64,000 nucleotides of DNA from positions 2,108,001 through 2,172,000 of the forward strand of contig OZ017761.1 in the NCBI GenBank assembly GCA_963969365.1. Direction: 5' to 3'. Positions 182-64,000 of the stretch are shown here, one piece after another. The notes beneath the pieces were generated by a model that did not search any database, was not told the origin of the DNA, and was given only the letters and a program-made list of their open reading frames with translations. Source of the DNA: Asterochloris sp. CNOR1. Lineage: Eukaryota > Chlorophyta > Trebouxiophyceae > Trebouxiales > Trebouxiaceae. Each line of letters starts with the position of its first letter. Positions within the stretch are counted from its first letter, which is position 1. A program made the translations under genes and the position numbers.

Positions 182-3100
182 GGTGCTGTATGTCGACATT
201 GACATCCACCACGGCGACGGCGTGGAGGAAGCATTTTATTCCACTGAACGCGTTATGACTGTCAGCTTTCACAAGTATGGGGACTTCTTCCCAGGTGAGA
301 GACTCTCATCAGATCACGCTCCAGGAGGCAGCATGGATGGCCCTCAACAAATGCTGCAGTGTGGCCATCCTGTGCAGCAGTACACTCTGCTCAGCTCCTG
401 GTTCTGCATTGGCCAGTCTTCCTTGTGGTCAGGCCAGGCGTGCAGTCGGGCAAAATGTGTGTAGGTGCTGGCATCTGTGTGGGTGCTAGCAGCTCTCCTG
501 GCCAAGCAAAGCATTGAGATTCACATGTGGGCTGGGACACAGTGCAGCAGCCGCTCCCCCTCACATGACCTGAGCCCTGCAGGCACTGGCGCCACGGAGG
601 ACATCGGTGTGGGGCGGGGTACCAACTACTCTGTCAACGTGCCACTGGCGGAGGGCATGGACGATGAGAGCTACCACTTCATGTTTGAGCCCATCATGCA
701 GCAGGTGGGGCATGGTGTCCTTGTCTTTGGTTTGGCTGGCTGTCTGCCAGCCCATGCAGCAGGACTGGCAGCCTCCCTCCTGTTTGGCTTGCTCAAGGGG
801 CAAGCGACTTGTGTCAGCAGAGCTTGTGGCTGGCTGCACTTGCGGGGACTGCTGCATTGCTGCACACAGACCTCCTTCTGGAGCCTGCACTGCTGCACTG
901 TTGCCCAGCCTGGTGGGGGGTCTGCAGCAAATGATCCTTGGCTGACAGGGCTTATCTGGCGCCTCAGCTCACCATACCGGGCATGAAGGGCGACAGGAGG
1001 GTTTCTAGCCTCTGGCTTGTGTGGCTGGCGTCCCCTACTCTTGTGCCAGACCTGCAAGGCGGGCCTGCTCTACCTGCCTGGCTGCTGTGTTGAAGGCAGT
1101 CCCTCTTCTGCAAAAACCTCGCAGGTCATGGTGAAGCTCTGCCCAGGCGCTGCCCCAGTCAAGATGCATTTCACCCAGCCAGATCTCCCTGCACCTCAGC
1201 CACCTTGTCTGCTGCAGGTGGTGGAGGGGTGCAGCCCAGCACCATCATAGTTTGAGGGGGTTGTTGACAACCTAACTGACTGCAGACACTTACTGTCAGG
1301 AGCACCTCCACTGCAGGTGATGGAGAAGTTCCAGCCAGGAGCCATTGTGGTGTGTGGGGGCGCTGACTCCTTGTCAGGGGACCGCCTGGGCTGCTTCAAC
1401 CTCAGCCTGGACGGGCACTCCCACTGCGTGGAGTTCCTGGCCAAGTTTCAAGTGCCCATGCTCGTGTTGGGGGGAGGTGAGCGTGAGACTGGACGTTGCC
1501 AGACCGGACTGAGTTGACCTGCCACGCTCCCCAGGGACGCGAGATTGTAGAGTTTCTGGGATCATTATGTTCTTTGGCCAGTTCCAAGTGCACAGGCTCG
1601 TGTTTTGGGGAGGTGAGTGTGAGACTGGAGGTTGGCAGACAGAGCAGAGTCGACCCACCATGCTGGTCTCTGGGGATCGCATGCTTGCTGTGTTTTGTAG
1701 CTGTGTGAAACGGCGTTGCTTCTTGGGGGAACAGGTAGAGATGATGTGGGAGTCTAGCTGCGCAGTGCAGACTGGTCTGAAGACTCCTGACATGGCTGCG
1801 CCCCTGCCAGACCCTGCTTGAATGCTGTGGTGCCAGCTCCAATGCATTTAGGGCACAGCTTGCTTGCGGGCATCCTGCTGAGCTCAATTGGTTCGGTGAG
1901 ACAATCATTTGGAGCCACCACAAACAGCTAGACTTATCTCTCTGCCTGCAGGCGGGTACACCATGCGCAACGTGGCGCGCTGCTGGTGCTACGAGACAGG
2001 ACGCCTGCTGGGCAAGGTGCTGGCGGATGACCTGCCCTCATCGGTGAGCTGCGAGAGCCACCATCCAATGCTGCCTCCACCCTCCACTATACCCTTGAGT
2101 GTGCCCGCTGCAGACCTTGATGCCCCAGCTGCTCACACCCTTCACTACACCCTTGAGTGTCCCCACTGCAGACCTTGATGCGCCAGCTGCTCACACCCTT
2201 CACTACACCCACACCCTCCACTCTGGCTGCTCACACCCTCCACTACCTGAACCCCAACCCAAAACCCTTGAGGGTGCCTGCTGCAGGCCCTGGGGGAGTA
2301 TGGTTACTTTGGGGACACCCGCAAGCTGCGCATCACCGTGTCCAACATGAAGAACGCCAACTCCCGGGAGGCTCTGGAAGCCACTAAGCTTCAGGTGCTG
2401 CAGCACCTGGCCAGGCTCCCCGCAAAGCCCAGCGCCCAGTTCCAAGAGGTGCCCCCAGAGGCCCAGTTGGTGAGCGCAGACTGGCACACCACAAGGTTGC
2501 GGGTGTGGGCTGGAGGCCGACCAAGTGTAGCGTCTGCTCTCTGGCGGCAGCTGTTGAGACACAGTTGCTGGGTCAAGTTGACTCCATTGGCTGCAATGTG
2601 GGCCATCATTCCGCAGTACGTGGCCAAACTCCCTGCAAAGCTCAGCGCCTAGTTCCAGGAGGTGCCCCCAGAGGCCCAGTTGGTGAGCACAGGCTGGCAC
2701 ACAAAAGGGTTGCGGGTGTGGTCTGGGGCTGGTTAAGTGCAGAACAGGGCTACGCACTACCAACTCCAGGTTTTTGTACAGCTGCTGTCGGCCCTGCAGC
2801 CTGATGCTTCAGGGAATGACACGGCCGTCTGCAGGGAGGCTTCCCAAAAGCGTTCAACAGGTTCATATCAGCCACCGCCGCTGAAAGTGCGACATTCTCT
2901 GCAGCCTGACGCTCCGGTGGAGCACAGGGCTGATGACGATGGGGGACAGGCAGCACGCATGCATGAGCAATTGCGGACTGCTCCCGAGCACAGCTGCCCT
3001 GTCTGTTTTGTCCTTTCTTCTGTGCTGCAGCTGAGCCTCCTCAGAGCACTCATCAGGTCCATGTGTGGATGCCAGCGCCGCTGAAAGTGTGAACATCTAC

Positions 3101-4815
3101 ACTGCAGCCTGACGCTCCGGAGGAGGACATGGATGTCCGTGGTGGTGGCCAGGCGGCCGACGAGCGCCACGTGCAGCGAGCCAACGGGTACGACTCGGAC
3201 GGGGAGGGAGAGGGCGCGCGGGGCAAGCCCTTTGCTAGCACTGGGGACACTGCGGATGTTACAGGCATTGGGGTGAGTCTGTGCTGTGCTTGGGAGGGTG
3301 TGAAGGCTGTTTATGAGACAGGGTGCGCAGCAAGCCCGCCAACTCCGGGGGCACAGGGGATGTCAGAGGCTTTGGGGTGGGTCTGTGCTGTTCTCAGGAG
3401 GGCATGAGGGCTGTTGAGGGAGAGGGGTGCGCCACAAGCCCGCCAGCATGGGAGATTTACACCGGCGGGGTGCATGACTGCTGCCCTGGTGAGAAGCAAT
3501 GAGGAGAAGATTACAAGACGATGTGGTGAGGTGCTGCCCTGCGTTGCTTTCAGACTTCTGCTGCAGCTGCTTGGAGGTGCGGCAAACAGGCTTGCAGATG
3601 CAGCCATCAGTTGCCTGTGGGGTGCCAGGCTAGTACAGGCGACATGGCAACGCCACAGACATCAGCAGGGCTGGGGCCTGCTTGTGCTGATCAGGCTTGC
3701 CAGCAGAAGCGCGATGTCACTGAAGAGGGCTGGAAGCGAAAGCGGGCGGATTTTGTTGACGTCCGCCTCTGGGAAAGTCAAGCCAGGGTGGCAGTGAGAG
3801 AGAGGAGGCACTGACAAGGGGAGGAGTGCAAACATCATGTCTTTGCAGAGCCTGACTCTACAGCCTTGAGGGTTTGGCTGACACCAGCTTCATGCACATG
3901 TGTGGCCCTGTCTGTACTGCTCATGTGCCTGCCACCTGCAGGCTGTCGCCCTGAGAGCCACCCCCCAACAGAGCCGGGCGGCCACGCCTGGCACAGCACA
4001 CGCGCGCGCTGCCACACCACCTGTGCATGGCGGCCCCACCTTGGCAGGGCCTGGGGCCCCAGCACAGGCAGTGGCGCAGCAGCAGTCAGGTAGGAATACT
4101 AAATGCTGTACACTTCCTGGTCCTTTTGGCTGCTCCTCCCCTGGGGTCTCAAACTGCTTTGCTGCACAGCTTGCTTGCTGCCTGTAGAGCGGGCCCTTAG
4201 CTGTATTGACCTCTCCTCATTGCAGGAATGTCCATACTTTGTGTGAAGGCATACGTGCTGTCAGTAGTCAGCGCGCTGTGGCATGATCATGTATCCTGCA
4301 TCTGAGACTGTCTGCTGCAGGGACTGCACAAAAGGATGTAGACATGTCCACTGTTCAAGCGCCTCCAGAGGTGGCGACAAGGCAACGGTCGCCATCGCCT
4401 TATCTGGCAGGTACAAGCCACTGCATCTGGTCTGCTGACTGTCACAGCAGATGGCCTCAGCCCCTGCTCTTATGTCAAGTTACATTGTCACAACTGCATT
4501 GCGAGAGCATGATGGTAGCGTCTGTGCAGGGCAAAGCAGATGGCTATCAATGTTGGCAGCCAAGTGCTTGTGTTCAGCACCCCTATCTTGAGACCTCTGC
4601 TGCAGGTCAGCTAGGCCCTGCTGGTTCCTCAGCAGGAGCGTCAGCCACTGGTGAGCTGCCCTGCCTGGCGCTATCTACTTGCTGCCACCACAGCTGAATT
4701 TACGTATGCCCAAAAATTGTGGTTCTGTGCACTCTGCCTTGAGTGCTTCTTTGGGTGTGCAGGCCATCTCCCGCAGCCCTGCACCCAGCAATTGCCTGAT
4801 GCACTCACTGCCTGA
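182..4815 (+). CDS. RPD3: class I histone deacetylase (RPD3/HDAC1 type), 5' end outside window
   Basis: Zinc-dependent lysine deacetylase of nuclear co-repressor complexes. Exons read: 182-294, 583-704, 1317-1476, 1952-2043, 2287-2469, 3108-3272, 3942-4089, 4321-4410, 4606-4650 and 4763-4815 (TGA); all phases agree. Visible are the zinc-ligand motif [15 protein letters not shown], then [24 protein letters not shown] (zinc Asp), the glycine loop with catalytic Tyr (GGGGYT) and the SNMKNANS / [10 protein letters not shown] end of the domain. The N-terminal third, including the charge-relay His-His, lies left of the window. The tail after 3108 is acidic, then Ala/Pro/Gln-rich and of low complexity, as in plant and algal class I enzymes; its exons rest on phase and splice sites only. 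Introns 5 and 6 contain degenerate copies of exons 5 and 6. It converges on SURF1. Confidence 0.9.
2400..2743 (+). repeat. tandem copy of HDAC exon 5 end plus donor site
   Basis: The stretch at about 2400-2530 (last part of exon 5, donor gtgagc and intron start) is repeated at about 2614-2743, an offset of 213 bp. The copy keeps the 30-base core around gcccagttg|gtgagc almost unchanged, but carries CAG to TAG in the exon part, so it would end translation if included. Confidence 0.85.
2794..3131 (+). repeat. three copies of HDAC exon 6 acceptor and exon start
   Basis: The block ctgcagcctgacgctccgg occurs at 2794 (diverged), 2899 and 3102. The second copy also shares the upstream gccgctgaaagtg block and encodes a degenerate version of the exon 6 start ([17 protein letters not shown] against [17 protein letters not shown]). 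Only the third copy leads into the acidic HDAC tail. Confidence 0.8.
3205..3460 (+). repeat. tandem copy of HDAC exon 6 end plus donor
   Basis: Two diverged units with an offset of about 105 bp share ggatgt..ag.catt/cttgggg followed by gtgagtctgtgctgt or gtgggtctgtgctgt. The first holds the real donor at 3273; the second, near 3377, has a weakened donor (gtgggt). Confidence 0.7.
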
Positions 4816-4942
4816 GGTCTGCTCTACCACTGCGCGCAGGTGCGGCAAAGCCTCAAAGCCAGGGGCCTTCGCACCAGAGGTCGCCTGCACCCCGGCAGGG
4901 GACTGGCCACTGACTGCCCATGAATGCTGGGCGCTTTGTTTT

Positions 4943-4947
4943 TGTAA
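4943..4947 (+). terminator. possible polyadenylation signal TGTAA
   Basis: TGTAA, the usual poly(A) signal of chlorophyte algae, lies 128 bases after the HDAC stop codon and before the convergent SURF1 stop at 5100. The motif is short, so this is only suggestive. Confidence 0.35.
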
Positions 4948-5099
4948 GGGCGTATTTGAATGCATGAATGCCTTTGTAGTCACCACATGTAGGCTTATAG
5001 ATATGGCAGGCCGAGAAGGAATGATTGCCAGGAATCTGTACACTCGACACAAGGTGACATGTACACTCAAGCTGAACTCATGACTGAAACACTGATACA

Positions 5100-7979
5100 T
5101 CATCTATGCCGTTTCACAATAACGGGGCGTTGCCGCATTGCGCGGTTGGCAAGCAGCGCTGTGGCGGCAGCCAGAGTGTACCAGGTGAGGGCATAGTTTC
5201 TGTGGTCGTCTGGGTTCACAGAAAAGCCCATCAGGTCCTGCACTCCTTGAGGCGAGGGATACTGCTCCTGTTTTGTGACGGGCTTCTGGGTTCGCAGAGC
5301 CAGCACATCCATTGCTGAGGGCAGAGCTTCATGTGAACTGCTGGGGCTAACGACCTGCAGACAACCGGTAGCCATATGAGGTGTTGAGAGCGGCCTGAAA
5401 AGGGCTGCAGCCAAGAGATTATGCAATGAGAGATGGCAGCTCGATGCCCTGTATTGCTCTTGAATGTGTGGCTTTCCCTCTATAAACACTGTATCAAGCA
5501 CCATTGCCGCAGACCACAATGCCGTCAGCCAACAACAGCAGCAGCCGCCCACCTCCACAAGGGGCGTGTCAGGCGGCAGCTGTAGGGATTGTGCAATGCC
5601 AGGAGCATCAATCCAGTACCACTCCCCTTCTGCTGGCTTGTTGTCGGGCACAAAGCCGCTGCGCGGCTCTGAATGGCGCACCACAGCCTCTACGGTTGCA
5701 GGAGCTGCACAGCAAGCAGAAAAGGGTGGCAGGGGTTGCCTGAAAGGCCGACAGCAAACGCTGCCAGGCTTGTTGCACAGCTCTCATGGGCGCGAAATTG
5801 CCCTTACACTCACATGGCCTGCACAGCAAGCAGGATCATGTCTGGGCCTTACGTGAGAGGCTGACAGCAAATGCTTGGTCTCTTGCTTGACGCAAACTGC
5901 TCAGCTCAAGTGGTGCATTCCAGCTTGCAAACTGCCAGTGCCTTCACAGCAGGCAGACAGCTCTAGTTACTATCCATGGAAACAACCAGTGGCTGCAGAA
6001 CACTTGCTAAACAGCTCAGATGGACCATTGGGGCAGCTGCAGTCGCAGAGGCTCGCTGGTCTGGACTGAGAAGTGAGAGTGAGGGCATAGCAGGGCCTGC
6101 TGGCAGCCAGGTACTGAGCCCTGCAAAGCATGACTGAAAAGGTGCCTTGTTTCCATGTTGGCATATTGAGCTAGGCTCCACCCTGCAGGGCCTGTGGTGT
6201 GGCTGCAGGCAGTAAGGCGTCCTGCTCTGCAGGGCTGGGCAAATGCGCATTCCCCTTACATTTTTGGTTCTACTGACATGGACCACCTACTGACATGGAC
6301 CACCTCACAGATGTGAAGAGTGCGGCTCAAACGTCTTACTCAGGTCTGGGCCACTGGAAGGATTCCTGGTTGGGTCGTGCTCAGCACGCGCTCAGCAAGC
6401 ACCAGCCCTTTGCTCCCAAGCTGCTGTTCTTGCTGGTTGTCACAAGTTGTGTTCAGAAATGAACAGCTGGTCAGTCTATGAGCAGTCAGCTGCCAGCACT
6501 CACCTCGTGGCTCCTGGCTCCGGCGCCAGCTTGGGTCGTCCCGCCACTGGGCCGGAACCCATCCCTGATTCACTAGAGCCCACTTGCCCCACTCAGGGGA
6601 GTACAGCGGTGTGATCAAAGTGTATCTGCACAGCAGGGGACGGGTGGCTGAGGGAGGGGCTGACAAGGCAGGCAATCACACCCAGCAGGATGCTACTACC
6701 TGCAAAAGTCTGATGTAGCAAGCCTAATTCAAGGTTGACTGCAACTGGCCTGGTGTTAAATGGGTGGCAGGCATGTGAGCTGCGGGGAGCCTGCAGCAGG
6801 CGGCCTCAGCCCTGCACCCCGTACCCCAGCTTGACAGTACCTGGCTGGCAGACAGCATCGCAGAAACATGCCTGCAATGGGGAGAGACCCTGCTGCAGGA
6901 GGTGGTGCCCGTCACGCTGGCCGCAGGCAGTGCTTGGCTGGCAGACAAGCGCGCAGGACGGGCCTGCAGCGGCAAGTCCCTGCTGTGGCCAGGCTCACCC
7001 CAGGGCCTCTCACCCTGGCTTGGCGGTGCCCATCACGGATCGCGGGCGGGGTCCCACATACACCGAGCGCTCGGTGTCCAGCCTGCCATGCAGAGCAACC
7101 CTGGTGAACTCTGCCACTTCCGCGGGCAGCTGGAACAGCTCTGCCGGCTGGGCCTGCAGGGGCAAGAGGAGAGGGTTCCGTTGCTGCCATGGTAGGGTCC
7201 TAATCACGGCGCTGGAGGCAGGGCGCAGAGGCACCTGGTCCCACTGGAGTGCATCCGCTGCTGGCGGAGCTGGTCTGGCAGGCAGCAGCACGCTGCGGCC
7301 AATGTGCTGCAGTCCACTTCACCCTGGAGGAAGGCTAGCCCAACTGGTTGCACAGCTCCAGCAAGCAGGCCGGGCCAGTATCCCCCTGCCATGTCTGTCA
7401 AGCTAGCCCACTCGAGAGGCAGGCAGAAGGGCCAGCACCACGGCATGACAGCCCTGACTGGTGCAGCACATCCATCTTGGAGCCCGCAACCTGCAGGACT
7501 GGCCTGTAGCGCAGCAGCCCTCTGCTCTATGAGGTCCATCTTCCAGGAGCGCCGCTGCACCTGCCAGGTGCCCAGGCCTGCTGCAGCAATGCAAGGGATG
7601 GCCAGGACCCAGGCAGACCTGCTGCGCCGCTGGCTGCCGTGCTCGCCTGCCTGCAGAGCAACCAAACGCAGAAGTCTCAGGCTGCCCTCTGGGACCTGTA
7701 CTGCAGCTCCATTGTGCTCCAGGCACAGTCCATGGCGTGCCAGCAGAACGCAGCAGAGGGAAGCAACCATAGATTGCCACAGGTGTGCACCTCTGAGGAG
7801 TGGGTGGAGGCCTCTGAGTGCTGAGCAATGTCTGCTGCGAAGCCCCTGCAGACTGCTATCTGCCAAGCCCCACATGCTGGACATCCTGTGTCTCTACCAT
7901 GCTGAATAGTGCCTGCTGCATTGTGATCGAGCAGCAGGAGGCTCAGCCGTCTGCTACGTCCTGCCACACCTCGTAGCAT
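5100..7979 (-). CDS. SURF1: SURF1, cytochrome c oxidase assembly factor
   Basis: Mitochondrial inner-membrane protein needed for heme a3/Cox1 maturation. Minus-strand exons: about 7898-7979 (ATG at 7979, Arg-rich presequence starting MLRGVAGRSRRLSLLLL), about 7491-7646, 7014-7153, 6504-6625, 5553-5689 and 5100-5354 (TGA). The first membrane segment and family signature AGLGTWQVQRRSWKMDLIE are clear. They are followed by EFTRVALHGRLDTERSVYVGPR, then TLITPLYSPEWGKWALVNQGW, then VVRHSEPRSGFVPDN..WYWIDAP. The C-terminal segment DHRNYALTWYTLAAATA gives the second membrane helix. Phases agree from exon 3 to the end except that the joint between exons 5 and 6 was not checked for an extra exon; the exon 2/3 joint is not resolved. 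The 3' end faces HDAC and the 5' end is 156 bp from the uS15 stop. Confidence 0.85.
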
Positions 7980-8135
7980 CTTCACTCACTCTGAAAGGCA
8001 GCTTGGGCATCTGCGAGAGCCTATCTGACTTGACTTTCAAAAACAGCAAAGGGTGGCAATGCTTTCACTTATGATGCTGAGCTTGGGGCCAGGATGAGCA
8101 GGCAATCTTGCTGAGCAGTGTCTGTCCAAAGGCGG

Positions 8136-12885: not shown

Positions 12886-14317
12886 CTGCAGCAGCCAGAC
12901 CAGCAGCAGCCCCACATGAGACTTCAAGAACTTGCAGTGTATATCTGTTAGCTGTTGGCACTGGTGGCTCTTCGTGTACACAACCCATACCTGCCAGCTA
13001 GCTCTGCATGTGCAGCACACAGCAATTTTGAGGCTAGAGAGGTTAAGTGATCTCTTCCCTGAAGTGTGCTGCTTGCATTATCGTTTCATTGAAGGGCCAA
13101 GCACTTTACCTATTTGTTGTGCAACCAGACCCGTAACTGTAACCTGAGTCTACCCTGGTTGCGGGACAGTATGATGATAAGCAAATATGCAATGGGGGAA
13201 ATTCAGCATGCTCCAGCAATCCTTCAAGTTTGCTGGGGCATCATTGGTGGTCCTGTTAGCAGGGTTCAGAGTGGCTTGCTTCCTGCCCTGGAGGTAGTCT
13301 GACTTGGGGAGTTGGACCTGTCTAGGGCATGTCCCTTTGCACTCCCCATGCTGGCTCTATAGAGTGGGTGCCGGGAAGAGTTGGAGCGGCTTGGGGGAAG
13401 AAGGCTGCGCCGCTGTTCAAGGTCCTCTGTTGAATGCCGTCCAGAATGCCTTGGCGCCAGGGGGCTGTGGTCGTCATCTGCAATGCGAAAGCAGGTCTGG
13501 ATACATTGAGCAGTCTACATGTGGTGTGCAGTGGCTGGGCACGGCGTAATGCCGGGTCAGGCAGAGTACTCTTGCTGCCATACCAGCACATGGAAGGCAT
13601 CTGGGGGGGGGCCCGGCCCGATCTAAGCTGTATGTCCTGGCTGAACACCTATCGCCGCACATGCAACGATGACTCATGCTGCCTCACACCACAAATTGAT
13701 GCATGGCACGCACTCGACTGCACAGCTGAGAGATGCATGGCCAGAAGGGGCTCTTGTGCCACACAACCTGAGCGTAAGCGCTCCCCTGAGCGGACAGATG
13801 TGTGCTGGCCTGGATGCTGCTCATCTTGACTGCCAAGGCCTTGTCAAGATGACCAGCTTGTACGTATACACACACACTCAAGTACTGACAAGGACTTCCT
13901 GGCTGAGGCCTGCTCTGCTGCGCTGCAAAGCACTGTCCCACTACCGAGTGCTTAGGAATGCAGCACACATGTGTGGGCCTTTGCATGAATTGGGGGGTCC
14001 CTCTGCTGCTGCGCTTGCTGCACACAGGTGTCACGGATTGCATGCACTGCAAGCCCCCATTGCCTGCAGGTGCCCTGCCCCTGCAGCACAGCCCGCGACC
14101 TGCGCAGCGCACCTGTCGATGCATAGGGGTCCTCGGCCGCTCAGCCTGGCGCACACAGGTGTCACAGATTGCATGCACAGCGAAGCCTGACTGCCTGCAG
14201 GTGCCCTGCCCCTGCAGCACAGCCCGCGACCTGGCAGGCCGCCTGTCTGGGCCGCTGCGTTGCTCCAGGAGGCCTCTGCTGCTTGGCCGGGTGCACGCTA
14301 AACCCAAACCCTATACC
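12886..14317. other. poorly resolved stretch with scattered minus-strand exon candidates
   Basis: About 1.4 kb between the unidentified exon and the MFS stop. It holds the two candidate exons named in the previous entry, an ATG candidate near 13823 on the minus strand, and the junction repeats at 14023-14317. No complete model. Confidence 0.25.
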
Positions 14318-14390: not shown

Positions 14391-17300
14391 CGGGGGATAG
14401 GGTTGGCGTCCTGATGCTCTGCCAGGAGCCCCTGCCCCGACTGCCCATCGAGGGTCATTGCCACCAGAATGGCGCACACCATCAGCAATGCGCCCAGAAG
14501 GAAACACGCACCTGCAGCAGCATGACAGTCATGAGCAAAATGACCGTTCAACTAAGCAGACAGAGGCATCGCTGACTGCACTGACTGTGTCTGGTTGCAG
14601 GAGCAACTGTGGAGCTTGGGATACAGCCCAGCAAACATCACAACAAAGGCCTATTGTGTGGTGACTGTGGGCCAAGGAGCTGTCCATACAGCCTGAAAGC
14701 AGTCCTCACTGCTTTGGACGTGACCTGGTCAAAGAAGGAAAGGTGACTCACCAGGGAAGTGGGGGAGCGGCGAGCCATCCCTGCTGAAGGCCGCAAACAC
14801 GGCGGCAAAGAAGAAGGGCCCAGTCCCCTGTGCCAGCGCCCTTGCTCCATACAGTGCTCCTTGCACGGTGCCCTGCAGAGCACAGCAGCCTGTCAGATGA
14901 AGTTTGAGAAGTGTGCGACTTCACAGAACCTGGCAGGAATGAAGTGCACCATCTCCTGTGGCAGCGCCCTTGCTGCATACAATGCACCCTGCACTGGCCC
15001 GTGCATGGAGTATAGCAGCCTGTCAGAGCAACCATGTGCGGTGCAGAGCCTTTCTAGACCCTGGGAATGTGTGGGCGGATACAAAGTGCCCCATCTCCTG
15101 CGTTGGTGCCCTCGCTCCACATGATGCTTCCACCACAGGGTATCCAGCAGCCTGCCACGGCACGCTTGTGGAGCACAGGCCCACACAGTCATTCCTGAGC
15201 AACACCTCTCAGAAACCCTCTGCACCCACATGTTGCCCAGCAGGCGGGCAGGCGCGCCTGCCCGCCTGATCGGCAGTGCATCTGATCCAGAAACAGTGCA
15301 GCATCTGCTGCAAGAGGGGCTTTGCCTGGACACCTGCCCCATGCTGGAGACATACATAGCAGCTTGCATTCAGCCAAAGGACTTGGAAACAATCGCAGGA
15401 AAACAATTCGGCGATGTGTGGCACACAGTCGCACATTTTGATACCTTTGTTGACTGCATATCAGCCCACAACCCACCCACTGTCAAACCTATGTCAGCCC
15501 ACAAGTAGCCACTGTCGACAGCCAAGTCAAAAGCACATCCCAATCAGCAGTGGTCGTGCTTGTGATACCGTCTTGATGCTAATTCCCAGTGGATCTGTCC
15601 CTAGCGCGTTGGCAGCAGCTCGACAAACAGATCCGACACAACATTTCACACGCCCACCTGCTCGCTGTCGAGCACGTTGTTGGCCTTGATGCTGCTGATG
15701 GCTGGGAAGGTGACTGACCCCAGCGTGCCCAGGGCGATGGCCGCAAAGGCCAGGGTCTTGGTTGTCACAAAGGCCAGCGCCACCTGCTGAGTTAGCTGAG
15801 CCAGCATGCCTGCAGGGGCAGGTGCAGTGGTGACATGGGTGCTGTTGGGGCAGTAGCCGCCGTCACTCCTGTGAAGCTGCATCAGGGTGCTTGGCATCGG
15901 GAACACCCATTGCGGGGGCACTTGCACAAGATTGACATCAGATCCATGTCTGATCAGATTGCTGTACAGGAAGGAGAATTTGTGGGGCACCATTGGGGTG
16001 GTTTGCAAACATGCCCGCCATACAAATTCCGCTGGGGGTCGCGCTCACTGCCAAAGCATCTGGCAAGGCGGCACACAGAGCAGCCAGGCACCCTGCCAGC
16101 GGCCTCAGCAGGACAACAGGCTGTTGGTGGAGGTCTCCCTCACCCAGCTAAGGAGTTTTGAGGCAGCTCAGCATCAGTTGCAGCAAGGAATCTGGTGGAC
16201 ATGCCAGCCACACATGTGCTGGGGCTGGGACTTGCTGCCAGAGCATCATGCAAGGTAGCGCCCATGCACGCTGCCAGCTGCCTCAGCGGACTGGCAGGCT
16301 GTCGGGCAGAGGCTTGGCTCACCCAGCACAAGAACTCGCGCCTCGCTGAGGCAGCTCAGCATGAGACGCAGCAGCAGCGTCTGCACCCCCAGTCCTGCAA
16401 CGCCATAAATGATGAACAGCGTCCCCTGCGCAGCAAGAAAGCAGAAGTGGGTCAAGCTTTCACCGCAGCAATGCCTTCCCCTGCAGAACAAGGCCTCTGT
16501 TTACCATTCCCTTAGAAAGCCACAAATCTACTAGCATCCCTGCACAGCGAGCCACAGGCAGGCAGGCCGCGGTCAAGGCCGTACAGGTGCACTGGCCTGA
16601 AATGCACAATTGTGCTTTCCAACAAACTTCCAGGGGGTTGCAATGGCCTGGGTGCTCCAGCACCAATAAGGTCCCACAAGCTGAGGAGGCAGCAAGCCGT
16701 GTAGATGCATGCATGACAGCCACACACGCAGACATCTTCGCTGAACAACAGGAAGACACTGCCGGAGATAAGCAGATGTCATTGCTCTGCAAAACACGTT
16801 CATGCCTGGCAGGCAGTGTTGGAGACTGACCTGATCTCTTGTGTCGAAGCCAAGCTTCTCCTGGAGGTATTGGATCAACAGGTCTTGCAGCCCCTCCGCA
16901 ACAACACCTGCAGATCAGCACCAGACCGGCAGCAGTCCACTGCTATTCACTGAGGTCAGGAGTGTGCGAAGCCCCGACAGATGCGGGCACAGCCAGCATC
17001 ACAAAGCTAGCAGGCCACTGCATTTAAGCTGGGGTCAGGAGTGTGCGAAGCCCCATCAGATGCGAGCACAGCCAGCTTTACAGTGTTGGCAGCCCGATGC
17101 TGTTCACTGAGAGCAAGAGAGTCTAGAGCCCCAACAGATGCAAGGACATCTAGCGTCAAGCAGTCAGCAGACTAGCGTCCAGATCTCTCAGACAGGTGTG
17201 GTGGACACCTTGAGCTGCCTATGCAAGGCAACAACCCCCAACAGCCTGCAGACACAAGGCCACAGCTCGACTGCACATGACCATGGTGTGTGTGTTGTCA

Positions 17301-47063: not shown

Positions 47064-50000
47064 ATGGATGCCCTACAGGCTGCCTTGGAAGATGCCTTGC
47101 CAGCTGGAATCAACGTGCCGGCAACTGGTGCTCAGATGGTGTTCATCGACAGGAATAATCCTGACCGCACTGTCAAGGTGCACATGGCTCTCACTGCTGT
47201 ACATTGAGCCTCCTCAGCTACTCCTGCTGATGTGTCAAGTCCTGCTGCAGATAGAAGTCAGCAATACCTCGAACTGGGCCGATGCTGCCTTCGTTACAGG
47301 CAGCGGCAAGCGCATCAAGGCAGTCCTTCTGCACCAGGTGAGACCCCTGTAGTCTGCCACATGGCACTTCCTGCTGCAGATAGAGTCACACACTGACAGC
47401 CTGCACCCTGCACTCTGGGCCTGCAAGCTGCATGCGCAGCGCAAAGGCTGCAACAGGGACCATAGGTGGCAGGCTGCAAAGCCTGGTGGTGTGGCCCACA
47501 CTGCTGCAGGCAGCTTTTCATTGATTGCTGCTGGCTTGCTCAGCACACGCCCTGCACTGGAGCTTGCGTGCTGCTTGCTCTGCAAGCCGTTGCATGCTGG
47601 AGAATCAATTGCTGCTGGCATGCACGGCGCAAAGCCTGCAAAAAAGGACGGCAGGCTGCATGCTGCTGATTGTGCCCACCCTGCTGGGCCTGTGAGGGAG
47701 ACTGCTGACATCTGTCCGTCGAGCTTGCAGTTTGAGATGGAAGGGGTCAAAATCCTTGGGCCCCTGGAGCCGCTGGCAGATGTGAAGTTGACAGGAGGCT
47801 GCCAATGTGGCAGGTGCTTCAGCAGCAGACTGTGAGTTGCTGCACCTGTCTCCTCACCAATGGTGTGCTGTTTCAGCCTGTGCCAGGCCGCCTGACTTGA
47901 GGCATGGTGCCTGCCTCTGCACTGCCTCCTTCTGGACCTGAAGAGGAGGCCAGCGGAACATCATATAGCAGAGCCAGGCAGCCTGTTGAGATGTGATGCC
48001 TGCCTTGCACTGCCTCCTTCTGCAGCTGAAACTTCAGCCAACAAACAATTGCACAGCAGAGCTGTGCAGGCCACATGAACCATCACTGTATTCCCTGCAC
48101 CAAAACCCAGATTCAGCAGAGTCAGGTTTGTTACTGCAGGCTGCCACTGCAGGGTGTATGCTGTGTCAGCAGACCACACCTTTGAGGCCTTCCTGGTGCT
48201 CAGCCTGCGCACGCCTGCAGACATGGAGCCGCGCATTCGGGTGAGCTGCACCAGCCTGCATCTGCTCAGCCAGCTGCACTGCCCAGGGTCAGCAGCAGGC
48301 ATCAGCACTCAGGTCTCAACGAGTATTGCAGCAGCAATACTGAATATATGGATGCAGAAGCCCTGACTTGCATGTAAGCAGCGCACCGAGTGATGCAGAG
48401 ACCTCAGCCACATCTGACTCAGTCTCGCAGCCTGCTCTGACTCAGCCGCTGCAAGCAGCACAGCAGCTTGCAGCCATCAGTGCTACTTGCGGCACCCTTT
48501 GAGGGTGCCACTGCCAGTTATGAACGCATGGCCAGCAGAGAGTCATCAGCACTCAAACATCTGCTGCCTGTGCAACCTTGCCATCCTTCCATAGTCCAAA
48601 GAAGGGTGGACCTCTGCCCGCAGGCAGTCGTCCCCTGACTATGATGTTATGCCCTGCAGGAGCTGATGCAGTACCTGCACATGGTGAACGAGGCAGCTCT
48701 CTATCCATTGGGTGTCGAGTTCAAGAGCTGGGGTGCCCCACAGCCGCTGGGCGCCCCCGTGGACTCGTGTGCCCACCCTGTCATCCTGACTATGCTCGTG
48801 GGGTAAGTCATGTGCCAGCAGGCACAGCGTGGCACCAAGAGGCTTGTGTCGCTGTTACAGCCCTGCGTATCTGGGCTGGATGCTTCTTGTTCCCTCATAC
48901 AGTCTGCTGTGTGGCATGCCTGCACCTTGTTGCAGCCCTCTATGGGCGGCAAGGGCACTGCTTGACCGCATGGAAACGCAACGCTCTTGTGTGATGAAGT
49001 GACTCCCACACACTGGCCGGGCTGGGGAAGTCTGGCGGTTGGTGGTGTGCTGTTGCGCGCAAGCAGCCCTGTGCTGCCGCCACCAGGCGCCCTAGGGTTG
49101 TCCCATGCGCTGCCCACGCATGGCTGCCCCCCGTCCAGGTCCCATACGCTGCTCACGAGCTGCTGCACCCACTGCAGGTCCCATGACCCATTGTGCAGCC
49201 TGCTGGAATCTTGTTTGAGATGATGCGGGTCCCACACGCTGCTCACGAGCTGCTGCACCCACTGCAGGTCCCATGACCCATCGTGCAGCCTGCTGGCTGT
49301 GCTTCCAAGGCATCGTTGGTCCCACATGCCGCCAATGAGCTGCTGCACCCCCTGCAGGTCCCATGACCCATCATGCAGCCTGCTGGAGTGCTTTTGAGGC
49401 GATGCGGGTCCCACACGCTGCTAACACGCTGCTGCACCTCATGCAGGTCCCATGATCCATCCTGCAGCCTGGAGGATGTGCTTTCGCGACACCGTGCAGG
49501 GGCGTCAGGCATGGACATCTCTCAGCCCTCCAGCCCTTCCATGAGCAGGTGGGCAGCACCAGCTGGTTCTGCAGCCAACACGGCATCACTGGCTGGCTCC
49601 ACAGGATGCCAGGGCCATTGCACATGGTAGAGCTGCCAGAAGCAACGCACTGGCTCTGCATTGGGCAGATCCCCGGGAGGAGGTGTGGACTAGCCAAGTA
49701 ACAGGCTTCGAGTGCCTGTGCTGTACCCCTCCAGCTTTGGCTGCTGGCCAAGCGTAGCCTCAATAGCCTGTACGGTGACAGGCGGTGCATCTGCAGTATG
49801 CCTTGATTGTGAGGAGGGCACGCCCATCAGAACAGATGACTTCTGCTGGCATGCAGCGTTTTCAGTGTGCACCAAGATTGTGTTCGTTCAAGCCCTTTCT
49901 CTCATGTCCATCTGCTGTGCAGAGCGGACAGTGATGAGGACGTGCCCAGCAGCCTTCCTGGTCAGGATCTGCCCCAGAGCCCTCACCCGCGAGACCAATC

Positions 50001-52982: not shown

Positions 52983-53230
52983 GCATGAGCAAACCCTAAA
53001 CCACTTTTGAAAGTGTAGCATCAGATGCTCAGGGCAGCAAAGCATGCCTGCTGCTACAGCTCAGTCATAGCCACCTCAGTCCTGAAGCTGCTGTCAGCAC
53101 CCAGACATTTCATGATTTCAAGCCTGCCCTGCATGAGCATGCTGCAGCACAGCTGCAAGAGACCATTGAATGGTGTCTTCTAACATTGTCCATCTTGAGC
53201 CAAACTCAGCCTGAGACCTCAAGGCCTTCA

Positions 53231-53885: not shown

Positions 53886-53953
53886 ATGGGCGCCTGAAGC
53901 TCTGCTGGCTGGCAGCCTCTGCAGGAGAGACACTCCTGTCCAGGAGGTCCTCA
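53886..53953. promoter_or_regulatory. 68-bp gap between divergent start codons
   Basis: Only 68 bp separate the proposed coiled-coil ATG (minus, 53885) from the ATG2 ATG (plus, 53954). The 5' leaders must overlap or lie within each other, or one start is wrong. Confidence 0.4.
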
Positions 53954-56900
53954 ATGGATGCAGCATGGAGCTTCCCAACGTGGATTGTTACCTCCACTTT
54001 CAAGCGCGTCGTGAAATGGCTCCTCAAGAGGCAGGTCGCCAAGGTGACACTACAGGTCCAGGGATGCAGGCGCTGTTTGGTGGCATTTGGCTGCCAAAGA
54101 ATGTTCACACGCCTCCAGAGTGTGCACCTCATCTCCTTGTACAGTCATTCGTGCTGCCAGACATGCAGTCAGCTCAGCAACAATGCTTATAGCAATACAG
54201 CAGTTCCTCAAGCACTTGCTGCTTCTTTTGCACCGGGAGTCGCCATGCTGTTGCCATGCGAGATGCCATGAGGGCCCAACGGTGCTTCGCATGGTGCTGA
54301 GCCTGACGCCATTTAACAGATTGTGTATGCTTGTAGCAACACGTTTACAGGCCAGCTGTGAAGAGCAGCCTGGCGGCTGCAGTTGGGCTGACTGTTGTTC
54401 TCCAGAATGCACGCCGCAATCATGCCCGCCAGCCTCGGAGTGGTGTTCATGGTCTCATGGCTTGAGCTGGCAGTGCCTGGTGCCTGCTGCAGATGCTGAG
54501 GGACAGCTCAGAGCCTGACTTGGGCCCTGTGTGCCTGTACAGGTGCTGCCTGACAGGTCCCTGTGCCCATGCAGATGCTGAAGAACGACCTGGACTTGGA
54601 CCAGCTGGATGCCCAGCTCAGCTCAGGCACTGTGGAGCTGCGCAACCTGCTGCTCAACTGCAAGTACCTCAACGACCAGCTGGTGAGCAGAGGGCTCAGC
54701 GCAGGCAGCATCTGTCTTTGAGGCCTCAGCAGGCTTTGCTGGGGCTCACTTTTCATGGAGATAGATGCTGGTCAGGCCTGGCTCTCGTGGATGGCTGCAC
54801 GCTGGACACCGCAACGATGTAATATAGGCATGGCGCAGGGCTGCACAGCGTGAAGCTTTGCTCTGCCGGACTGCAGAGGCATGCAGCTTGCCGTGCGCTT
54901 GTGCCCTGTGTACTAACTGCGCAGTATGCAACCTATGTCGTGCCAGGCAGGTTCAGCCGCACCTGACACTGCCTCGTGCTGCAGGCATGTCCAGCATGGG
55001 AGATCACAGCGGGTTATGTGGGCAGCCTGAAGGCTGTGGTCCCGCTGGCCTCACTAGCGACCTCGGCTTGCAAGCTGCAGCTGGACGAGACGCTGTTCAC
55101 AGTGCGGCCTGGGGCAGTGGGGGAGGTGGCGGGCACGTGGCGCCCAGAGGAGCGTCCTGCAGCAGGTGGTGACACAGGGGGGGGGGGGGGGAGCATGACC
55201 TGCATGCGTGCTGGCTGAGATGCTGCTCACAGTGTGGCCTGGGCAGGCAGGGGTGCAGTAGGCATGCAGAATGTCCTGCAGCAGGTCGTGATGCAGGGAC
55301 ACAGCTGGCGCCCAGATCTTAGCGTCTGCCTTGGTTGGTGTGTGGCCTGCACAAGCAGCCCAGTCCTGGAGGTGCCGGTGTGCACAGGGGACGCTATCAT
55401 GATTCGTATCACACTGTTAGTAGATGGCATGCATGAGCAGATTTCTGGGGTTGGCAAGCTCATCCATCATAACCCTTGCTTCAAGTACCATTCATTCTAT
55501 TTAGACTTGATTGCTGCCTGCAGGCACAGAGGTTGAGGCCGCTGGACTATCCACAATGTGAAGTGTGATAAGTGCACGTGAATATGCCTGCGCTGGGTGT
55601 TGGCCTGGGCCTTGAGGTTGAGGCCTTCAGACTGTTCGTAGACATCAACGCCATCCTTCTTCCTGCAGATATGGGCGGCTTTGGCCTGGAGGTGGAGGAC
55701 TTTGGGCTGGCGCAGGGCGGCCAGCAGGCCATTGCCAAGTCCGCCAAGTACATCGCGGGGGGCCTGGAGAACCTGCTGCGCAACGTCCAGTTGCAGGTGG
55801 GGCAGGGTAGGGTACCCTCTTTCACCCCTGCTCTGCGATTGCACAGCGCAGCATGTGCTGTGTTTAATGCTTCTATGAATAAGGCAAGGTTTAAGCTTGT
55901 CAACACAGGCACCTGCGTCTTTATTGTCCAAGCACAAGGAAGGACGCGCTGCGTGTGCTTGCTTGGGCTGTGCCTGGGCGCCAAGCCAGCAGCAGGGGGG
56001 CCATTCTTGCTGCCTGGGACCGTGCGCTCTGGCGCAACTGCGGCAGGTGGGAGGGCAGAGCCGGGCAGCGTGACGCAGCTGTAGTGTGGGGCTACCTGAT
56101 GAGCACGCATGGGTTTAGGGCTTAGGACTTAGGGTTGGGGCAGCATCTGCAACCAACTTGCATGGGCCTTGGCTGCTGGAACTCCATTAGGAGTTGCATT
56201 AGATGTTGCAGACGTGTTGACTGCTGAACCTGCATATGAGGTTGGCGCTGGTACTGAACCTGCATGGGAGTTGGGCAGCACAGGCTGACTGCTGGATCTG
56301 CATGAGGGTCTGGCCAACTTGGGAGTTGGTGTCTGTTTTGCCAGTCACAGAACCCTTAGTGGAGTCAGAGGCTGCTGCACCACACGCAACTTCAGCGCGG
56401 GGACTAGCCGCCGCTGGGCATGGATGAAACGTTTGATGTGTGGGTGTGACCTGCCCCACATGGCTGACGGGTCGGACTTGCCAGAGCACAGCCCAGGCAC
56501 ATGCAGCAGGGACCAGTGTACTTGCCGCCTGCACTTGGAGTACCTGCTGACGGTGCTCACAGTCAGCCGGCACCTGCAGGCTACACGGACGACCGTGCGT
56601 GTGGAGCTCCCTGGGTCCCCCGAGCGCCCGCCCTCCCTGCTGGTGCTCAGGCTGGACTCTCTGGCCATGACAGGTGACCCACAAGCTGCTGCCCTCCCAT
56701 GTGTGGTGCATTCTGTGGCCATGACAGGTGAACCAAAGTCTGCTGCCCTCCCAGGGTCGGGGCCCAGACTGGACTGTGCTGCAGGTGTGCTCCTGCAGCT
56801 GTGCTTGGACTGAGCCAGACCTCCATGATGAACCCAGTGACGGGCCTGCGCCTGTGAGCTGTGTGGTCCGGGCCTGGACTCCAGTGCTGTGTGCTCTGCA

Positions 56901-59900: not shown

Positions 59901-62900
59901 ATCCTGCTCCTCTCAAGTGTTTTTGAGACACCTTCTCTCTGCAACGTGTTGAAAAGACTCTGGCACGCAACGCAGCTCTTGGTAGAACAAGAGTGAGCTG
60001 CTGCTTGACGAGCTGCTGCATGAAGAGCTGCCCCGACCTGGCCACACTCCCTCAATTGCTTTGTGATGTGGACGGGCCGCAAATCGCTGGCCCCCTTGTG
60101 CCCATCGTGAACTTTTCAATGTCGTCCTTGTCCACAGGCAGCTCATGTGCAAGCACAGCCCCCACAGAGGCGCCATGCCCCCCTGCATCCTTGCTCATCC
60201 GCTACGTGACTCCCACTGCAGGCAGCAGGCGACTCCAGTCCAGAGTACCGCCCGCGCTTCAGTCTTGAGGTCGGCGACCTGCACTTGACTGCAGAGGCCA
60301 CCCCGCACCCGCTAGGCGTTCGGTACAGCCTCAAGCTGTTCCGGCTGGAGGCTGCCGAGCACCTGCCCGTGCCAGCTGGCTATGAGGCTGCTGCTGTCGC
60401 TGCGCAGCTGCAGGAGGTGCGTGGTGGCTCGTCTCAGTCCACTTGGAAGCGCAACTTCTGCACATGCGTAGTGTGTGTCTGTATCAATGACCATTGCAGT
60501 CAGGCCAGCATAGCCCAGACATGAGGAGTCCTCTGGCGTAGCGATTGGTCATGCATCTGCCATCATAGACAGCCACCCTGTAGCTTTGACACCACGTAGC
60601 TTTGCACAGATGTAGTGCACCTTCCGCCGCTGCAGGCCTTGCTATTCCAGAACACACTCGAATTGATGCATTGCCTGTATAACTAGGATAGCTTAGCTGC
60701 CCTGCAGGTGTTCCAGCTGTCAGAGACACACCATACAGGCGTTGGAGGCCTTGCATTTGATGTCAAGGTCTCTCAATGCATATCTAGCATGAGACTCAAC
60801 AGCACTGATGCCCTGCAGGTGGCTCAGGCTGCCAGAAGCGCTGCCTGGGGGCGCTGCGATTCTGCTTGCTCTGAAGTAATGCGTTGCATGATGAATCTTT
60901 ACGGCAGGTGGCCGGGCTGCCGTTGGCGCTGCCCCTTGGCGCTGCAACTTTGCTTGCCCTAATGTACTCCTCTGAAGAGTCAATGTGTAAAGCTGAAGTG
61001 TCTTTGCTGCCCCCGCAGGTGGCCAGGCTGCCAGAGGCGCTGCCCCAGGGCGCTGCAGGGCCCCGTCCTCAGCCCAGCTTCTATGGCCTCTCGCAGCTGC
61101 CCGTGCGCCACAGCATGTACAGCAGCACGCTGAGTCAGCTGTCAATGCTGGGGGCATCCTATGGGCCCCTCGATCCCAGCGGCGTGCACCTCCACCAGAC
61201 ATCAGGCCAGATTCAGGTGGATCTGTTTGTAAACCTATCTTTGCAACAGCAAGGGCCACTGCGGGGCCTTCTGACCTGGCACATGATGGAAGCTCATACA
61301 AGCACTAATGTGTGTTGAGCAGTTGGCCGGGCGGCTGCTTCAAGGCTTGCCATCATCAAGCAGCCTGCAGACTAGGCCAATGTTTCCTGCAGCAGGGCAG
61401 GGAAGACTTGCAGGATTGTGAGCACACTAGCCTCTCATCATCCCTGATGACCCACTGCCCAAGATCTGCCGGTCATGTGTCCGCAGGTGTGGCCTGTGCT
61501 GTGTGTGGCAGGTGGGCGCCGTTCCACAGTGTCTGCCCCCAGCGTCGAGCTGTCCAGCGGCAGTGCCAGGCTGCAGCAGAACGAGCAGAAGCGTGCTGGC
61601 GGGCCCAGCTGCCCCGCTGGCCAGCCTGCTGGGCTCGTCCATGTCAGCCTCAGACCTGTCACCTGCTGGGTCAGCTTCCCCCTGCTCAACAGGCTGCAGG
61701 CCTTTGCCAGCCCCCTCATGCTGGCCCAGGCGCAGGCGCAACAGGCGCAGGCGGCGGCCAAGTCGGCGGTTGCAGACAGGTCTGTGGCTGTGCACAGTGG
61801 TTACTGGTTGGCACGATTGCTGCGTCTGGCGGACGTGTGCTTGCACTGATGCAGGCCTCAGCCAAGCTGGCGGCTGCTGGCCGGGGGGTGGCAGGTGCGT
61901 GGCTGTGCACAGTGTCTGGTGATTGGCACACAGTTGCTGCATCTGGCAGGCTTGGGGTTGCCCAGATGCAAGTCTCGGCCAAGCCAGCGGTCGCCAACAG
62001 GGGTGGCAGGTGTGTGGCTGTGCACCGTGTCTGGTGGCTGGCACCATTGCTGCGTCTGGCAGGCTTGGGCTTGCCCAGGTGCAGTTCTCAGCCAAGCCAG
62101 CAACCGCTGACAGGGTGGTCAAGAGGGTGGCTGTGCTGGGTGAGTGACAGAGTCGCTGTGTCTGGCTGGCTTGTGCTGTCAAAGTTGCAGCTATGCTGAG
62201 TGGGTTGGCACCATACATTGCGACTGATGGGCTTGTCCCTACGTCGTGGCAGGTAGCAGTTGACTCGATGGGAGCTAGACAAGGTGGCAGGTGTGGGGCT
62301 GAGCTGCGTGTGTGGCATGATAGGTGTGTCTGATGGGGTCGTGCTTGCAGGCGCCAGCCAAGCCTTCAGCTGGTTCAGGACTGGGCAGATTGGTGGCTAC
62401 ATCGGCTGCTGCTTGCTGCATTTCACATCAACAGCAGACTGAGGGCTGAGCCTGCTGGTTGTGCCATGTGCGGCAGTGCGTCCCACAGCCTGCCTTGAGC
62501 TAGACAGCCAGGTGACACCAGTGCAAAGCTTGGCTCTGTCCAAGTAATGGTGCCCTCTGTGCCTGTGCAGGCCGCAAGGCAGCGCCAGTGTGAACAGCAT
62601 CCTGGATGATCTGAAGGTGGGCAGCTCTGCGTCACGTTGCTCTGCAGCAGGGTCGGTCTGGCACCCCTTGATGTCAGTGGCCTGCAAATTCCCTGCAGCA
62701 GTCAGGACCTGCATGTCACAGGATCTGTCATTTCCAGTGACATATCTCATGCCCTGCTGGAGCCTCCATCACTTGGCCAGACCCTGGTCAGCCAGGTCAC
62801 CAAGAGTAGGTCACAGTCAGACCCTTGGGTTTCAGCCCTGTACGGGATGTTTGGCTGGTGGTGTACAATGGAACCCATCCCACCTGACTGTGCCTGGCCG

Positions 62901-64000
62901 CGACGCTCTTGGCCCTGCTAGCAGCCTGGCCGCCCCGTGCTGCAGGGGCACAGTGCGCCCCCGCGGCCGCCGCCTGCAGAGCAGGGTCTGTGGGCAGACA
63001 TCAGTGCACCCAACATGTGCGCCCTGCTGCTGTTTCCCACGCTGCCTGGGCCCTCTGGGCTGTCGGAGAGCCCCTTGGAGAGCCACGGCTACACCTGCCT
63101 GGCTGCAGACTTCCTGGCTGTGCCCCGACCTCCTGAGGTGAGGCTGCCGAAACACGAGATGAGGCCAAGTGTCTGTGCAGCTGCGCCAGACCGTTGTGCC
63201 CTTGAGGGGCATGGCAGGCTCTGCAGGTGCAGGTGCAGGGCGCAGACATGCCTCATCACTCCAGCTGTCAGGGGTGTGGTGCCTCAGAGATGGACCTCCA
63301 GCTGTTTGACGGCTAAAATCCCATCGCAGATAGCTTGTGGCAACAACACCTCCAGCTCAAAAGCAAGGCAGGGGCTGCAGTGAGAGTCTGCCAATAGGAA
63401 GGCGCGTCAGCAAACATGCTGGGGCTGTTGCATGTTGGTATCAGTCAAGGCAGTGCCATTAGAGGCTGCGCTTGACCTTTTGATTGAGTGAAGATGCTGC
63501 AGCTGTTGCGGTAAGTGACACCAATACAGTCAGTGAAGGGAGGGTCTGCCAGTAGGACCTAACCTCAGTGAAGTGGTGCTGCTGCTGCTGCTGCTGCGCA
63601 CTGGCGGCACTGCTGTTGTCATTGTACTAAGAGTCTGCCAGCAGGGTCCACCTCAGTGAGGATGCTGCTGCAGGTTGTTGACAAGGGTCGTAGGTGCTAC
63701 GAGCCGATGATACAGATTCGGCCGTTGCCCCCGAGCCATCCCAGCAAAGCCCATGCTGCCTCGAGCAGACTCTGGGGGGCAGACATGGCTGTGGGGCAGG
63801 TCAAGCTGTACCTGCTGGGGCAGGCAGTGGGGACAGCCTCCCTGGGGGGTGTCCAGCTGCAGGCAAGCCCTTTGTGTGACAAGGTGCCCTCACATTAACT
63901 GGCAGGTCAGGGGCGTGGCAGGGCTGGTTCCTGGCATCGGCACTGCCTGCAGTGGTCTCCTTTTGTGGGTTGCTTTGCAGTCTGCATCCCTGACACATTT
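53954..64000 (+). CDS. ATG2: ATG2, autophagy lipid-transfer protein, 3' end outside window
   Basis: Chorein-type bridge protein moving lipids from ER to the growing autophagosome. Well-joined 5' exons: 53954-54034 (ATG), 54575-54682, 54985-55165, 55669-55796, 56580-56673, 57190-57356, 57935-58131 and 58231-58495. They give the hallmark N-terminus TFKRVVKWLLKRQMLKNDLD, then AQLSSGTVELRNLLLN, then AWEITAGYVGSLKAVVPLAS, then KYIAGGLENLLRNVQLQ. Later exons are less sure: about 59428-59607, 59727-59875, 60222-60416, 60708-60767, 61019-61216, about 61488-61780, about 62545-62615, about 62946-63138 and about 63691-63864. They include FEACAPEVSIVLWYPDDQQ, RFSLEVGDLHLTAEA and LWADISAPNMCALLLFP. The chorein wording fits ATG2 better than VPS13. 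Only the N-terminal part is present. Confidence 0.8.
55098..55290 (+). repeat. copy of ATG2 exon 3 end plus donor
   Basis: The exon end cacagtgcggcctgggg..gcgtcctgcagcag|gtggtga (55098-55172) recurs as cacagtgtggcctgggc..tgtcctgcagcag|gtcgtga (55228-55290). Offset is 119-130 bp. Confidence 0.8.
55177..55191 (+). repeat. poly-G tract
   Basis: Fifteen consecutive G, directly behind the exon 3 donor of ATG2 and between the two junction copies. A likely slippage site and a likely place for sequencing error. Confidence 0.85.
56111..56140. repeat. interstitial telomere-like fragment
   Basis: gggtttagggcttaggactt followed by agggttgggg: four degenerate TTTAGGG-like units in an ATG2 intron. Confidence 0.5.
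56662..56758 (+). repeat. 54-bp copy of ATG2 exon 5 donor border
   Basis: tggccatgacaggtgaccca (56662) and tggccatgacaggtgaacca (56716) are each followed by .a.gctgctgccctccca. The first is the real exon end; the second lies inside the intron with an intact donor. Confidence 0.85.
57002..57225 (+). repeat. three copies of ATG2 exon 6 acceptor region
   Basis: Acceptor plus exon-start blocks begin at about 57002 (ctgcaggggccatgctg..cagtcaggtggg), 57091 (tgcaggcggtgggttga..aggtggcctttga) and 57185 (tgcaggcggtgcgctga..cagtcaggtggcctctga). The third is the in-phase exon. Confidence 0.75.
60815..61065 (+). repeat. three copies of an ATG2 acceptor plus exon start
   Basis: gcaggtggc..ggctgcc followed by gcgctgcc....ggcgctgc begins at 60815, 60904 and 61015 (offsets 89 and 111). 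The last leads into the long exon at 61019. Confidence 0.8.
61765..62150 (+). repeat. 115-bp tandem repeat containing an exon border, 4 copies
   Basis: ggctgtgcac or ggctgtgctg begins at 61786, 61901, 62016 and 62129 (115, 115 and 113). Each unit includes gccaag.cagcggt.g..acag followed by g.gtggctgtgcac, where the first is the end of an ATG2 exon (AAKSAVADR) with donor gtctgt. The later three are intronic copies. Confidence 0.85.
63541..63690 (+). repeat. duplicated acceptor block with (GCT)n run
   Basis: gtctgccagtaggacct..cctcagtgaagtggtgctgctgctgctg (63544) and gtctgccagcagggtccacctcagtgaggatgctgctgcag (63633) are diverged copies with an offset of about 89 bp; a weaker one lies at 63386. 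The first has expanded to about six GCT triplets at 63577-63596; the second ends at the real acceptor. Confidence 0.7.

Follow-up and report, generated by a model that had tools for sequence, protein, structure and literature searches.

The 64,000-nucleotide stretch of the Asterochloris sp. CNOR1 genome analysed here, hereafter the window (contig OZ017761.1, positions 2,108,001 to 2,172,000; G000:C16:2108001-2172000), raises the question of why the ends of exons, together with their splice sites, recur in the adjacent introns. A first-pass annotation of the window attributed these copies to a process that acts on splice junctions. Short direct tandem duplications are present in all six contigs sampled from this genome, and the excess of copied junctions among them depends on how well the duplications are preserved. 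With a probability of about 0.8, the copies are explained by non-directed short tandem duplication, which would lengthen introns and leave dead junction copies behind, and the bias towards junctions by the longer survival of pairs that are anchored in an exon.

Local direct duplications in six contigs

The 2.25-Mb contig that carries the window ends 79 kb away from it and belongs to a 56.4-Mb genome of 21 contigs; the GC content of the window is 57.7% by base counts. Together with five 50-kb blocks (250 kb; contigs C1, C2, C3, C4 and C11), it makes up a sample of 314 kb, about 0.6% of the genome, to which the results below refer unless a narrower scope is given. Ungapped direct matches at offsets of 20–700 with a score of at least 18 were collected, and the segments were merged and clustered so that each locus is represented by one best pair. 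Of the 141 direct-repeat segments, the window holds 50 and the five blocks hold 91 (9, 18, 22, 17 and 25). Ten local dinucleotide shuffles of all 314 kb gave 0.0 segments on average, and three shuffles of 264 kb gave 0, 1 and 0. The copies are close to each other: 109 segments have offsets of 20–200, 26 of 201–380, 5 of 381–560 and 1 of 561–740, and each of six 181-wide offset ranges sampled between 1000 and 25180 contains 0 or 1 segment. The middle half of the offsets spans 77–178 bp, and most are below 400 bp. No inverted match of the same score was found in the 314 kb, as against the 141 direct ones, and an inverted-repeat search of the window returned 16 pairs, all short or poor. The absence of inverted counterparts fits slippage or another mechanism that duplicates in tandem.

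Each locus copies its own sequence, as the first-pass annotation had stated in setting these copies apart from a dispersed repeat family. When exon-border windows were compared with their own adjacent intron at a score of at least 16, 50 of 908 gave a match, compared with 1 of 3632 comparisons with unrelated introns, and in a search of the 56.4-Mb genome each of five duplicated units returned its own place alone among the best candidates scored. Sequence shared by many unrelated introns, the hallmark of introners, was not seen with these five units and 908 border windows, a comparison in which introns were not clustered as a whole. Clustering resulted in 92 loci, 27 in the window and 65 outside it, with all six sampled contigs represented, and the view that the process extends beyond the window is thereby borne out. 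Closeness, direct orientation and non-dispersed sequence mark these loci as short local tandem duplications, with the reservation that the alignment covers less than 0.75 of the offset in 63 of the 92 loci, so that strict head-to-tail contact is not established locus by locus. Many units have decayed too far for their breakpoints to be located. With one detectable duplication roughly every 3.4 kb, they are a source of intron growth, and the earlier statement that they lengthen introns and leave decoy sites holds. Loci are denser in the window, at 4.2 per 10 kb, than in the five blocks, at 2.6 (p 0.04); the higher value near a contig end is possibly a subtelomeric effect.

Exon borders were taken from the third, retrained round of a self-trained predictor, which gave 787 introns with a median length of 195 bp and 741 internal exons with a median length of 121 bp. 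The first round had been rejected for excess coding sequence, many GC donors and short introns, and the second for a drift to short introns. The predictor puts 95–98% of each block within genes, which is overprediction, and weak exons are common because too much sequence is placed in genes. Real sequence yields 676 exons at a total score of 15 and 472 at a score of 20, compared with 206 and 17 in a shuffled control. An exon was trusted when it passed a score threshold of 18 and had a coding score of at least 5, and 545 exons pass. The splice consensus obtained from the predictor is CAG/GTGAG for the donor and TGCAG/G for the acceptor. Together with the gene content, this consensus points to a probable green alga. 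Since the core CAG/G is common to donor and acceptor across the sample, a T after a copied acceptor can make it read as a donor.

Preservation of copied junctions

Classified by trusted exons, 30 of the 92 loci pair a copy that contains a junction with a copy free of trusted exons (junction copies), and 31 lack a trusted exon in either copy. An exon interior or a partial exon lies in one copy only in 15 and 2 loci, respectively; the rest are 8 exon–exon pairs, 3 with a junction in one copy and exon in the other, 2 with a junction in both and 1 with a partial exon in both. Circular shifting of the loci gives an expectation of 12.2 junction copies (standard deviation 3.2), and none of 3000 shifts reaches the 30 observed. 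The five blocks alone have 22 junction copies against 8.1 expected, and the window alone has 8 against 4.1 (p 0.04). This test replaced a first permutation on 81 loci and all predicted exons, which gave 27 junction copies against 14.1. Taken alone, the excess by plain circular shift would support the first-pass annotation, which had proposed such a permutation for the overlap with exon borders. However, neither permutation is a fair null, because both ignore decay and selection.

When preservation is used as a proxy for age, the excess is seen to lie with decayed pairs. In the 29 well-preserved loci, whose aligned length is at least 0.75 of the offset, there are 6 junction copies against 4.0 expected (p 0.18) and 7 loci with any junction against 9.7. 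In the 63 decayed loci, there are 24 junction copies against 8.2 and 28 loci with any junction against 14.2. The same split with all predicted exons gives 7 against 5.3 (p 0.28) for well-preserved and 20 against 11.4 (p 0.002) for decayed loci. The proposed overlap test thus returns an excess over the whole set that is not significant in the well-preserved part. Consistently, the median aligned fraction is 0.82 in entirely intronic pairs, 0.54 in junction pairs and 0.22 in exon-interior pairs, and the highest value in entirely intronic pairs is what survivorship predicts.

These observations lead to a likely scheme in which short direct tandem duplications would arise at many places without a preference for splice junctions, probably by slippage or by a microhomology-mediated route. 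A duplication inside an exon would usually be purged by selection, and one inside an intron would be harmless. A duplication that spans a donor or an acceptor would also be harmless as long as the site beside the exon body is used, and would result in a longer intron carrying a dead junction copy. The copies would then decay, but the coding copy would be held by selection, so that such a pair should be recognisable for longer than an entirely intronic one. Old duplications would accordingly be seen mainly at exons because the coding copy is preserved, and junctions would therefore look targeted.

This scheme was simulated by inserting random tandem duplications, accepting those that were entirely outside exons or across one junction, allowing unrestrained decay in non-coding sequence and only slow decay in exons and splice motifs, and applying the same detector. 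Age classes were compared by aligned fraction instead of identity, which was taken at one offset over merged segments and is too low where indels occur. At a per-copy divergence of 0.20–0.25, 47% of the accepted junction-spanning duplications are still detected, compared with 11% of the entirely non-exon ones. The surviving junction pairs of this class have an exon side of 41, an intron side of 14 and an aligned fraction of 0.50, close to the observed 43, 14 and 0.54, and the share with an intron side of at most 15 is 0.53 in the simulation and 0.57 in the data. At a divergence of 0.15–0.20, the shares of the three main classes are 0.39:0.18:0.42, compared with the observed 30:17:31 (0.385:0.22:0.40). 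With ages spread evenly to 0.3, the junction share is 0.44–0.51 for all predicted exons (observed 0.40) and 0.33–0.37 for trusted exons (observed 0.385). Ages derived from intron-only pairs predict 53.0 junction pairs with trusted exons and 31.6 with all predicted exons, where 30 and 27 are observed. A preference for junctions is thus not needed to account for the data under this model, imperfect as it is: the 29 well-preserved loci show no significant over-representation of junctions, and in the simulations, which allow for decay and selection, randomly placed duplications produce junction copies in numbers as large as those seen. The claim of a process acting on splice junctions is not sustained.

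Several points weigh against this explanation by survivorship. The exon borders come from a predictor trained without RNA data. The well-preserved set is small, so that an excess below about twofold is still compatible with it, and preservation is only a proxy for age. Evenly spread ages to 0.3 under-predict all exon-touching pairs in 6 of 6 settings (0.40–0.63 compared with 0.60–0.69 observed) and make the intron side too long (median 49 compared with 14 observed), and the ages would therefore have to be weighted towards old events. No single age class fits the anatomy of the pairs, for which a divergence of 0.20–0.25 is best, and the class shares, for which 0.15–0.20 is best, together. Fitting ages to intron-only pairs is an ill-posed problem, and the fit yields too many exon-interior copies (75.1 and 33.4 compared with 17 and 19 observed). 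Finally, acceptor copies retain the TGC before AG at 45 of 46 positions, compared with a simulated fraction of 0.88, a small deviation that may come from ascertainment. The short intron side had also been considered as a sign of precise copying of an exon plus its splice site, a reading that was rejected when the age classes reproduced it.

Among the alternatives, duplication might be directed to junctions, with splice-site sequence (CAG/GTGAG, CTGCAG/G) or co-transcriptional splicing initiating or favouring the copying. The plain circular-shift excess speaks for it, in the five control blocks as in the whole sample, but well-preserved loci lack a significant excess, and the exon-side and intron-side lengths agree with random placement plus decay, which makes this explanation improbable. 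A variant makes junctions true hotspots, owing to co-transcriptional splicing or to slippage at the similar motifs CAG/GTGAG and CTGCAG/G, and puts the non-significant result down to the small number of 29 loci; it is to be regarded with the same scepticism. It is also conceivable, if still harder to credit, that selection keeps the copied sites as functional decoys for splicing regulation or nonsense-mediated decay. GT or AG is retained in register in 19 of the 30 junction copies, and the TGC of acceptor copies is well kept, as described above. The donor copies, however, conserve their site about as well as the copied exon part (GT at 25/28 and positions +3 to +6 at 48/56, compared with 436/515 for the exon part), much as in the simulation, and the offsets do not favour any reading frame: of the 26 pairs with an in-register segment, 7 are offset by a multiple of three and 19 are not. 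The description of the true site as usually the one nearest the exon body agrees with 30 loci in which the other copy has no trusted exon against 3 in which it has, and this order is expected from selection for an unchanged protein; that it holds in 30 of 30, though, is mainly a consequence of the class definition. The copied sites are probably not used.

In the model of Rogers, a new intron draws its donor as well as its acceptor from the duplicated segment. In-register repeats of donor and acceptor contexts with a score of at least 12 are found in 6 of 787 predicted introns and in 0 of 4000 cross-intron pairings; at a score of at least 10, there are 10 introns against 1.4 expected. In the best candidate (L007, 8412–8500, minus strand), the intron length of 89 equals the duplication offset of 89, and the flanking exons have coding scores of 45.8 and 13.5. 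By its sequence, this intron is a candidate for gain by tandem duplication in the form described in a review (PMC3443670). At 1218–1316 in HDAC, the upstream exon is weak, so that this case is perhaps a plain acceptor copy. Short tandem duplication may therefore sometimes be a source of new introns here, but the model covers those few introns only: the main duplication class lacks the form with both ends repeated, loci with junctions in both copies are no more frequent than expected (2 against 3.9), and as a general account it is very improbable. Least credible is an assembly artefact, in which repeated read ends or mis-joined haplotypes would create false local copies. Nothing observed speaks for it, and assembly error is unlikely because the copies have diverged, the best segment being less than 90% identical in 64 of the 92 loci and at least 98% identical in 3.

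Non-directed duplication with unequal survival therefore remains the preferred explanation, and it carries a warning. A permutation that is blind to decay yields a 2.5-fold enrichment at exon borders, of which the likelier cause is the preservation of one copy by coding sequence. Other reports of duplications favouring exon edges could be subject to this bias as well.

Duplications in the genes of the window

The 27 window loci comprise 8 clear junction copies, 12 without contact to a trusted exon, 3 in which the interior of an exon is matched by non-exon sequence, and 4 of other classes. A Pfam scan of ten predicted protein pieces from the window gave matches at an E value of 0.001 for 7 of the 10: histone deacetylase, SURF1, MFS_1, a FAD/NAD-binding oxidoreductase (the CRTISO-like gene), protein kinase, IFRD and ATG2_CAD, the last with 39.2 bits, under the curated cut-off of 50. 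The other 3 of the 10 pieces had no Pfam match. Junction copies had been reported in six genes, and those in HDAC, the MFS gene, the receptor-kinase region, IFRD and ATG2 are recovered.

HDAC, on the plus strand, has four such copies. The exon end with donor 1476 (1433–1528) recurs in the intron (1569–1664) at an offset of 136 with 79% identity (whole locus 1433–1664), and the end with donor 2469 (2400–2513) recurs at 2613–2726 at an offset of 213 with 88% identity (2400–2726). The acceptor and exon start at 3108 have an intronic copy at an offset of 200–203 (2871–3135), and the exon end with donor 3322 has its intronic copy at an offset of 104, two copies in tandem (3243–3445). The exons at all four sites are trusted, and the unit at 2469 has a single place in the 56.4-Mb genome. 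An entirely intronic tandem array with a period of 58 lies at 2070–2246. In the MFS gene, on the minus strand and with the MFS_1 match, the acceptor and start of a trusted exon at 14872 are copied into the intron at an offset of 128 (14813–15005). A duplication in its 3′ region (13995–14233, offset 131 bp, single genome place) contacts weakly predicted exons only, and an entirely intronic array with a period of 79 lies at 16950–17095. A SURF1 gene is placed at about 5118–7650 on the minus strand, between HDAC and the MFS gene, by predicted exons and the Pfam match; the first-pass annotation did not name it.

The CRTISO-like gene (plus strand) does not conform to the reported pattern: its copy is exon-interior (22315–22349 and 22654–22688; locus 22315–22688) and spans no trusted junction. 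In the receptor-kinase region, on the plus strand, the acceptor and start of a trusted exon at 29834 have an upstream intronic copy at an offset of 160–162 (29660–29972). Three further loci rest on weakly supported exons: a tandem array of about 71 bp at 31992–32223 in the same region, which has a single genome place; the exon end with the weak donor 34592, also in this region, whose exon is under the trust threshold and which is copied into the intron at an offset of 131 (34554–34757); and a tandem array of about 110 bp in IFRD (42046–42323, minus strand). IFRD, identified by its Pfam match, has a copy of a trusted exon end with donor 44531 at an offset of 104 in the intron (44416–44557, minus strand).

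The next three loci are on the plus strand. A four-copy array of 90 bp at 49100–49484 is nearly all intronic, extends to the acceptor of a weak exon at 49468 and has a single genome place. In ATG2, the end of a trusted exon with donor 55165 is copied 119 bp downstream inside a weakly predicted exon (55154–55298), and a three-copy array of about 115 bp with a single genome place extends over the predicted exon ends 61789 and 62009 (61777–62136). A tandem duplication with an offset of 54 bp lies within a predicted ATG2 exon at 56653–56753 and would encode an 18-residue repeat. ARAGORN, run with bacterial settings, found no tRNA in the window, and Rfam gave no match there at the gathering threshold.

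Comparison with known systems

Internal gene duplication in eukaryotes, the subject of work by Gao and Lynch in 2009, is said to include short intragenic duplications, some of them with exon–intron borders, and would in this respect resemble the loci described here. The first-pass annotation knew of no named description of the pattern. Internal gene duplication and boundary-crossing tandem duplication are in print, so that this statement needs narrowing; what was not found described in the literature searched, with subscription papers mostly outside its reach, is dead junction copies at such a density. The literature passages covered likewise contain no account of the preservation effect.

The potato RdRp gene has a tandem duplication across an intron–exon boundary and another of 83 bp within an intron (Ma, Lan and Niu 2016, PMC4974935). 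The likeness is that a local tandem duplication spans the boundary and copies the splice signals; the potato event, however, gave rise to a new intron and to additional exon sequence, whereas here most copies look dead, just lengthen the intron and occur at high density. In a Drosophila study (PMC2891723), novel intron positions are attributed to sliding or tandem duplication, and purifying selection against duplications that include exons is mentioned. Duplicated proto-splice sites are common to both systems, but the Drosophila cases described are new intron positions and those in Asterochloris are dead junction copies within existing introns.

Intron gain by tandem duplication (Rogers; Hellsten et al. 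2011), as presented in the review (PMC3443670), is matched by the few introns with both ends repeated and by the one strong case in which length equals the unit; the main class here, in contrast, makes no introns. Introners (PMC9860276) also affect intron content genome-wide, but they copy themselves into many genes, whereas each locus here copies itself only. The kind of duplication is thus already known from such systems, and it is the density of the loci and the demonstration of the bias that may help others.

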